This document shows, in pieces, positions 33,003 to 50,665 of a stretch of DNA of 63,325 bases. This stretch comes from a bacterium (GTDB taxonomy: Bacteria > B130-G9), in NCBI GenBank assembly GCA_035527515.1, contig DATLAJ010000157.1, positions 1 to 63,325 on the forward strand. Reading direction: 5' to 3'. The notes beneath the pieces are model-generated. The model was not told the origin of the DNA and made no database searches. It worked only from the letters and a program-made list of their open reading frames with translations. Each line of letters begins with the position of its first letter. Positions within the stretch are counted from its first letter, which is position 1. The translations under genes and the position numbers were made by a program.

Positions 33003-33200
33003 ATCAGAAATGTAGAAGGGGTTTGACCCTAGATTGAATGAACTATAAGGAATCGGCTGCACAGCCTCAGAAAGAGCGACCCTATCTGACGCGCTTGTCC
33101 TGGCGAGAGGCGAAGTCGCCACCTTCGCCTCAACTTGCGATACTCTTCCTCGCTTCAGCAAGCCTTGCCAAAACGTTAATGAGGAAACTCCCAGAAATAG

Positions 33201-33566
33201 CAGGACTTTTCGTATTTTTTGATTAAGGAGTGTTGTGTTGTTGGCTGTGGTTCTTGGTTTTGGTCAAGAGCAAAAGTGGAATTAGGATTGACGTGATGCT
33301 GACGTTTCGGTTCCCCGAAGGGGGGCCACAATAGTAGCCGTAGGTGGAACCTACGGAATCCGTTCACGTCGGTATCCTCGCGAGCCCGAATGGGTCGAAC
33401 AGCCCGTCCACAGGGCTATGTTCAGCCCTTTTAGGGCTGTTTTCCTTTCCTCCTCTGACCCTGATCCGTAGGTTCCACCTACGGCTACTCACGTTCATCC
33501 CCTTCCGGGGATGCCGGAAGAACGCCGTCAGTTGAGCAGGCACGGGCACGATTACGAAAACTCCTC
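33201..33566. repeat. Composite palindromic element, copy A
   Basis: About 366 bp, bounded by CAGGACTTTTCGTATTT on the left and GATTACGAAAACTCCTC on the right, inverted repeats matching at 13 of 17 positions. Inside are successive hairpins: CCGTAGGT-gga-ACCTACGG (33338-33356), CAGCCCT-ttt-AGGGCTG, CCGTAGGT-tcc-ACCTACGG and CATCCCC-ttcc-GGGGATG. Copies B (41504-41891) and C (50283-50665) share this order. It contains no real gene; short open frames in it are spurious. The divergent spacer between the peptidase and kinase genes (32921-33808) is otherwise promoters only. Confidence 0.75.
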
Positions 33567-41503: not shown

Positions 41504-41891
41504 CAGGAGTTTCCCCAAAACTTGGCTTGAGTAGGTTGTGTTATGGGCTGTGCTGTGCCGATTTGGACGTTGAATAAGTGGAATTGGCAAGCTCGGCTGA
41601 TGTGGCCCTGAAAGGGCCTGACGTGAGTAGCCCCGTGTGCAACGCGGGGTCATGGGCGTGCCCAAATCCGTCTTGGTGACCCTAAAGGGGTCGCACAAAT
41701 TCAGAGATTAACGGTATCGTTCGACCCCTTTAGGGTCGGTTTTCAGGAGGTTTGGGACAACCTGTCCGCAGGTTTCACCTGCGGCTACTCACGTGTTCCC
41801 CCTACGGGGAAAGTATCCACGCCAGGGGAAGCTGGCATACGCCCATAACCCATCTGTTCCCGCTGTCGGGAGAGGAATGGGGGAACTCCTC
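41504..41891. repeat. Composite palindromic element, copy B
   Basis: About 388 bp with ends AGGAGTTTCCCC (41505-41516) and GGGGGAACTCCT (41879-41890), inverted with one mismatch. Internal hairpins in the same order as copies A and C: CCCCGTG/CGCGGGG (41631-41649), CGACCCC-ttta-GGGTCG, CCGCAGGT-ttc-ACCTGCGG, CCCC-tac-GGGG. It ends 28 bp before the dnaK promoter. The remaining 41407-42010 spacer holds the hairpin, this element and the dnaK control region; no gene. Confidence 0.7.
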
Positions 41892-50282: not shown

Positions 50283-50665
50283 GAGGAGTTTTCGTAATCT
50301 TGGGGAGGATAGTGTTGGGTTGTTGGCTCCGGGTCTTGGTTTTGGTCAAGAACAGAAGTGGAATTAGGGTTGCCGTCACGCTGCGTTTCAGTCCCCCGAA
50401 GGGGGGCGACAATAGTAGCCGTGGGTGTAAACCCACGGGATCCGTTCACGTCGGTATCCTCGCGACCCCAAAGGGGTCGAACAAATGCAGCGGCCAAAGC
50501 TATCGTTCGACCCCTTTGGGGTCGCTTTTCAGGGTGCTTGGGGCCGCCTGTCCGTAGGCTGGGCCTGCGGCCGGCGCCTACGGCTATTCACGTTCATCCC
50601 CTTGCGGGGATGCGGCAAGAACGCCGTCAGTTGAGCAGGCCCGAATACGATTACGAAAACTCCTC
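50283..50665. repeat. Composite palindromic element, copy C
   Basis: 383 bp with perfect 17-bp inverted ends, GAGGAGTTTTCGTAATC (50283-50299) and GATTACGAAAACTCCTC (50649-50665). Hairpins: CCGTGGGT-gtaa-ACCCACGG (50419-50438), CGACCCC-aaa-GGGGTCG, CGACCCC-ttt-GGGGTCG, CCGTAGGC...GCCTACGG and CATCCCC-ttgc-GGGGATG. Long runs are nearly identical to copy A (for example the stretch ending GATCCGTTCACGTCGGTATC). There is no transposase or gene inside. The rest of 50152-50841 shows nothing recognisable apart from the start of the glycosyltransferase gene. Confidence 0.8.

Follow-up and report, generated by a model that had tools for sequence, protein, structure and literature searches.

The window analysed here is a stretch of 63,325 nucleotides (contig DATLAJ010000157.1, positions 1 to 63,325, of assembly GCA_035527515.1; GTDB lineage Bacteria, B130-G9), which is one contig of a metagenome-derived genome of 3.47 Mb in 183 contigs that is 95.6% complete (G000, hereafter the source genome). 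It contains three copies, A, B and C, of a repeated element. These are mini-transposons without genes of their own, bounded by terminal inverted repeats, and their interior is filled with hairpins. In a first-pass annotation the interval 33201-33566, which coincides exactly with copy A, was noted for stems that differ in sequence between copies yet keep pairing. All the stems quoted there for A, B and C were located; it had not been recognised that the hairpins are the cargo of a transposon, nor that the outer ends have a separate origin. Scans of the window for tRNA and tmRNA genes and against Rfam gave zero matches.

Inside each element lie two units in inverted orientation. Each is composed of a hairpin (H1), a linker of ~11 nt whose last bases are TAG (in most cases GTGAGTAG or ACAATAGTAG) and a second hairpin (H2), and two central hairpin arms separate the paired units. 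This interior folds strongly (z -9.1). Copies A, B and C start with CAGGAGTTT(T/C).. or GAGGAGTTTTCG.. and finish with ..AACTCCTC. The features are:

33201..33566, + strand: copy A, a 366-bp mini-transposon; terminal repeats at 33201-33216 (left) and 33551-33566 (right); target duplication not found
33201..33283, + strand: left end of A, with homology (78% over 83 bp) to that of the L183 transposon described below
33309..33327, + strand: H1, left unit of A, GGTTCCCC-GAA-GGGGGGCC
33334..33337, + strand: GTAG, 5' foot of H2, left unit of A
33338..33356, + strand: H2, left unit of A, CCGTAGGT-GGA-ACCTACGG, a covarying stem
33423..33439, + strand: central hairpin of A, CAGCCCT-TTT-AGGGCTG, then a T-rich run; counterpart of the hairpin adjacent to the Y1 gene in gene-bearing Y1 elements
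33466..33484, - strand: H2, right (inverted) unit of A, the late stem, CCGTAGGT-TCC-ACCTACGG as written on the + strand
33485..33488, - strand: GTAG, foot of the right H2 of A, read on the - strand
33496..33513, - strand: H1, right unit of A, CATCCCC-GGAA-GGGGATG on the - strand
41504..41891, + strand: copy B, 388 bp, of the CAGGAGTTTCCCC terminal-repeat subfamily; target duplication not found
41606..41649, + strand: left unit of B, H1-GTGAGTAG-H2, with H2 (CCCCGTGT-GCA-ACGCGGGG) at 41631-41649
41765..41811, - strand: right unit of B (late stem), H2 CCGCAGGT/ACCTGCGG
50283..50665, + strand: copy C, a 383-bp mini-transposon with a perfect 10-bp target duplication, TGCCTGAGTC
50392..50438, + strand: left unit of C, H2 CCGTGGGT/ACCCACGG
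50575..50611, - strand: right unit of C, start of a lengthened H2

When modelled from sequence alone, the unit has at least 149 matches in the source genome; three family members have 72, 36 and 72, and four unrelated genomes have none. The dominant feet of H2 are GAGTAG, TAGTAG, GGGTAG and TGGTAG, with GAATAG as a minority, as in repetitive extragenic palindromes (REPs) of the GTAG type. In G003, the most distant family member, those units that were examined lack the outer ends, and the DDE transposase of L183 has no match in that genome. Therefore, the units are independent of the outer shell, and they are probably older than it in this lineage.

Covariation was assessed on 75 distinct units from four related genomes, collected with a profile of sequence only that is blind to pairing. 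Because H1 shifts register between units, we used pair counting and a parsimony test on a tree in place of RNAalifold- or R-scape-type testing. In H2, 97.7% of pairs are standard (83.4 ± 0.9 in shuffles), 68 cells are altered on both sides (17.8 ± 3.2) and the covariation score is 0.394 (0.144 ± 0.014); none of 500 shuffles reached any of these values. When pairing partners were displaced by 1-3 columns the score was at most 0.195, with at most 15 double-change cells. A cruder count, of pairs with changes on both sides (4/7), was not above shuffles. With the stem columns left out of tree building, 30 same-branch double changes, distributed over four pairs, were found in H2, versus 5.7 on average and 13 at most in 5000 null placements and 4-5 for displaced partners; this is parsimony on a short alignment and corrects for kinship of the units only roughly. 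The paired substitutions at equivalent stems thus hold up, and in the larger set of copies, where a lack of significant covariation would have spoken against the first-pass annotation, covariation is significant.

Some H2 stems differ by a single-pair step (CCGTAGGT/CCGTGGGT and CCGTAGGT/CCGCAGGT), and half-steps were seen at L011 (CCGCAGGT/ACCTACGG) and L021 (CCGTAGGT/ACCTGCGG). The stem of H1 also varies (CATCCCC/GGGGATG, ATGCCCT/AGGGCAT, CAGCCCC/GGGGCTG, CTCCCT/AGGGAG, AAGCCCA/TGGGCTT), with a register that depends on loop size. The middle stems compared earlier between A and C are both present, but they do not correspond strictly one to one, as the two central arms of A are diverged from each other.

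The loops follow a strand rule. On the GTAG strand, 3- and 4-nt loops read GNA or GNNA in 59/65 (H2) and 57/67 (H1) cases. Counted by arm, GN(N)A loops make up 26/28 on one element strand in the left arm and 29/30 on the opposite strand in the right arm, and this count includes zero TN(N)C loops. Loops of the forms GNA and GNNA give very stable DNA mini-hairpins. The rule is true of the source lineage and several others, not all; in other phyla TTTA, TTCA or AAA also occur. Were the element a single RNA, one strand would be favoured, and in a cruciform neither strand is preferred; the pattern, as far as sequence can indicate, therefore favours strand-specific hairpins of single-stranded DNA over either. 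Of the earlier statement that structure rather than sequence is conserved, as RNA or as a cruciform, the part on structure is well supported, whereas neither of the two proposed forms is the best fit to strand-bound loops. Transposases of the HUH/Y1 family act on single-stranded hairpins (PMC6006769, PMC8266576).

The interior shares homology with both flanks of Y1 (IS200-like, HUH) transposase genes. Profiles of its left and right halves, made exclusively from mini-transposons of the source genome, gave 68 and 73 matches at E<0.05 among Y1 loci and 0 in reversed loci. A profile-matching flank adjoins the gene in 30 of 77 Y1 loci (median 24 bp), on both sides in 19, and only one locus has profile matches more than 800 bp from the Y1 gene. 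The matched flanks span at least eight phyla (Hydrogenedentes, Verrucomicrobia, Electryonea, Terriglobia, Neomarinimicrobiota, Cloacimonadota, Bacteroidetes and others). Of 75 Y1 homologues, 68 have Y-x3-Q-x2-HH and 71 the HUH motif, and an inward-facing hairpin with a TAG or TAA foot lies within 400 bp of the gene in 37 of 75 loci, on both sides in 23. A strict scan for the TAG-footed hairpin found none at L113, L117, L119, L121 and others, some of which have flank-profile matches. The clearest layout is at L102, in the most distant family member, where an uninterrupted Y1 gene (with E for Q in the signature) lies between H1-CTGTAG-H2-central hairpin and an inverted set; L109, from Candidatus Coatesbacteria, carries the same stretch, and L104, from another relative, has a truncated Y1 gene with a matching upstream half-layout. 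Because the profiles match both flanks of Y1 genes, the interior is best read as a Y1 element minus its gene, comparable to the paired REPs known as REPINs (REP doublets forming hairpins) and BIMEs (bacterial interspersed mosaic elements).

In the source genome a single Y1_Tnp gene was found (L071, C146:60700-63000), which is IS200-like and has Y-x3-Q-x2-HH. Around it lies a cluster in which hairpin units alternate (CCCCGCTAGGGG..GTGGGTAG..; CCGTCAGGCTGACGCCTGCGGCTACC). These are diverged relatives of the window units and have their layout; they were recovered also by a profile built without them. A canonical REPIN system with its REP-associated tyrosine transposase (RAYT) was considered and rejected, as this sole Y1 protein scores 25.5 bits with NF047646 (cutoff 80) and 73 bits with the IS200 model (cutoff 55). 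A RAYT (TnpA-REP, Y-x3-NP) was not found in the source genome, where the only Y1 is the IS200-like one.

The outer ends have a different source. In a sister genome of the same genus, L183 encodes a 424-aa DDE_Tnp_1 protein enclosed by terminal repeats of the A/B/C type. Its left end matches that of C at 84% over 92 bp, and its rightmost 17 bp match the right terminal repeat. The protein scores 47.9 bits with Pfam DDE_Tnp_1 (cutoff 23) and falls under all curated NCBIfam IS4/IS701 cutoffs (best IS701, 49.2 vs 150; IS4, 45.9 vs 115); its sequence places it in the IS4/IS701 superfamily as a divergent member. The idea of a surviving outer transposase in the source genome was rejected, as only decayed fragments were found in this 95.6% complete assembly. 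At L063, L064, L183, L184 and L186 the 3' end of the outer DDE transposase gene stops at the common terminal repeat; the gene is intact in L183 and elsewhere decayed or cut off.

The 16-base terminal repeat, with at most two mismatches, has 50 matches in the source genome and 0 in the reversed control, and nine copies, including C, have target duplications of 8-10 bp, exact or with one mismatch. Full copies are 93-97% identical in the source genome, 79-91% in a genome of the same genus and ~75% in one of the same family; in the more distant genomes searched for the full element, the sole match was of 21 bp. Terminal inverted repeats, absence of coding capacity, many dispersed copies, target duplication and an autonomous relative sharing the ends are all as in miniature inverted-repeat transposable elements (MITEs).

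The left flank of one of the copies L013 and L011 matches the right flank of the other. This match suggests mis-assembly or recombination at the repeat, so some copies that lack a duplication are probably recombined or chimeric joins. Immediately left of A (33180-33200 of the window) is GAGGAAACTCC, which resembles the terminus of an older family member. L023, L058, L060 and L062 form a related subfamily of 430-489 bp in which a longer, different palindrome (CGCCATCCGCCAATCGC../..GCGATTGGCGGATGGCG) replaces the usual centre. L013 (C167:11638-12063) has an additional palindromic insertion of ~60 bp (CTCGTGCTTCGTAGC..) in its left part, and similar sequence lies near L016 and L030.

One end type of the outer shell tends to lie beside promoters. 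In the first set, TTGAC was found 10-15 nt outside 29 of 49 ends of the ..CTCCTC type versus 0/38 of the ..CTCCTG type, and a promoter-like -35/-10 pair (score >=8) starts at that distance from 32/49 ..CTCCTC ends, versus 2.3% in shuffles. The same test on newly fetched ends gave TTGAC at 11/19 ..CTCCTC-type and 0/9 opposite ends. Pooled counts, which allow one extra mismatch (the first set then has 52 and 42 ends), are 40/71 versus 0/51 (Fisher p ~9e-13). Examples among these right-type ends are window position 50283 (outside, - strand), L014, L079 and L183:1562, the last showing that the autonomous copy has a TTGAC-facing end too. At 50283 the left end of copy C is the promoter-facing repeat type, with TTGACC 13 nt outside on the - strand; copy A is an exception to the pattern. 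From their sequence context, the ..CTCCTC end appears to face a sigma70-like promoter, and these small transposons tend to sit immediately upstream of gene promoters. As a tentative proposal, whose chances we put somewhat short of even, this IS4-superfamily lineage and its gene-less derivatives would integrate in fixed orientation ~12 nt upstream of the sigma70 -35 box, thereby spreading an undescribed class of double-hairpin REPs, tied to subclass 1.2 Y1 transposases, to promoter regions genome-wide. We found no relevant description of promoter-targeted bacterial transposons of this kind in a literature search that was not exhaustive.

Taken together, we consider it probable that every copy nests one gene-less mobile element in another, with a DDE-type shell and inner, Y1-derived hairpin units that would be read by a Y1 transposase. 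A Y1 element would have lost its gene, leaving the inverted pair of GTAG-footed double-hairpin units; these would be REP-like sites that fold as single-stranded DNA, and reading by the Y1 transposase would keep the stems paired. The whole package would then have been dispersed by the DDE transposase that now persists as decayed pieces in the source genome. Several points weigh against this reading. Target duplications were sought at A and B and none was found; the units that flank L071 are related but clearly different, and no Y1 partner with closely matching hairpins was found in the source genome. Many units come from recently amplified subfamilies, so the counted cells exceed the independent events. 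Lastly, template switching could yield paired changes even if the stems were under no selection. Paired substitutions are therefore not, strictly, proof by themselves of selection on structure; it is the loop pattern that argues for it.

Template switching can produce paired changes and bring one arm into line with the other (PMC8794818), and it is documented as making and maintaining hairpins (PMC8794818, PMC7202029). If switching between arms during replication mends mismatches (quasipalindrome correction), stems could be maintained neutrally with nothing reading them, and H2 changes are indeed mostly full Watson-Crick swaps with few half-steps. This leaves unexplained the loops that begin with G and end with A around a free middle, on opposite strands in the two arms and with no TN(N)C, as well as the conserved GTAG foot and the layout shared beside Y1 genes in many phyla, and we regard it as unlikely by itself; template switching and selection may act together. 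We find it more doubtful that the element acts as RNA, with hairpins that serve as terminators, mRNA stabilisers or insulators between an upstream gene and the adjacent promoter. The central hairpin and its T run resemble an intrinsic terminator, the interior fold is strong (z -9.1), many elements adjoin promoter-like sequences, and REPs and MITEs are thought to work at the RNA level in other bacteria (PMC3733652). However, loop sequence goes with the GTAG strand in either arm, and any one transcript would thus hold one favoured and one unfavoured unit, and Rfam has no match in the window.

Exchange of whole units between subfamilies by recombination or gene conversion, named earlier as an outcome that would undercut the inference from paired changes, could account for H2 classes several pairs apart (CCGTAGGT vs CCCCRYGT), which are possibly cassette-like, and would suit flanks that look recombined or chimeric in copies such as L011/L013. 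It is not the whole story: single-pair double substitutions and half-steps occur within otherwise near-identical units, which largely refutes exchange for the single-pair steps, and the 30 same-branch double changes are distributed across four pairs. As a general explanation it is thus very improbable. We give equally little credence to the hairpins being cruciforms or landmarks for nucleoid proteins (gyrase, IHF, HU), as proposed for enterobacterial BIMEs; BIMEs are likewise laid out as REP-like units in inverted pairs (PMC3733652, PMC2817692), but a cruciform should show no preference of GN(N)A for a particular strand of each arm.

The nested, Y1-derived element that we favour is of an overall MITE- and REPIN-like kind; two features may be new, namely how the ends of subclass 1.2 Y1 elements are built and the oriented, promoter-adjacent insertion. 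A mini-transposon appears here to carry the likely recognition sites of another transposon. The promoter-facing end, which recurred in a second set of ends, suggests either promoter-targeted integration in bacteria or selection for precise spacing between element and promoter.

Comparison with known systems places the outer shell with IS4/IS701 transposons and their MITEs, with which it shares the DDE_Tnp_1 domain, a Y-R-E-K-like arrangement (by eye), inverted ends and target duplications of 8-10 bp. It differs in the Y1-derived hairpin cargo of the mini-elements, in having one end that faces promoter-like sequence at a near-fixed distance, and in scores under the curated cutoffs. The units resemble REPINs and BIMEs, in which REP pairs are mobilised by RAYT/TnpA-REP, in the GTAG hairpin foot, the inverted pairing, the many dispersed copies and the related units on the flanks of a Y1 transposase gene. 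Unlike these, they have two hairpins (H1, H2) per unit joined by ~11 nt and GN(N)A loops, the associated Y1 is not a RAYT, and they are carried within a DDE mini-transposon. The closest transposase group is TnpA-Y1 subclass 1.2, described with the Y-x3-Q-x2-HH signature and generally without typical terminal IS200 structures (Quentin et al. 2018, PMC6006769). The signature, the single copy in the source genome and the many Bacteroidetes homologues are shared. One difference lies in the hosts, among which are Verrucomicrobia, Hydrogenedentes, Coatesbacteria, Neomarinimicrobiota, Cloacimonadota, Planctomycetes and Zixiibacteriota. The other is the TAG/TAA-footed hairpins near 37/75 loci, which tie a subclass said to have, as a rule, no such end structures to a widely distributed double-hairpin end, a candidate DNA substrate of its transposase.
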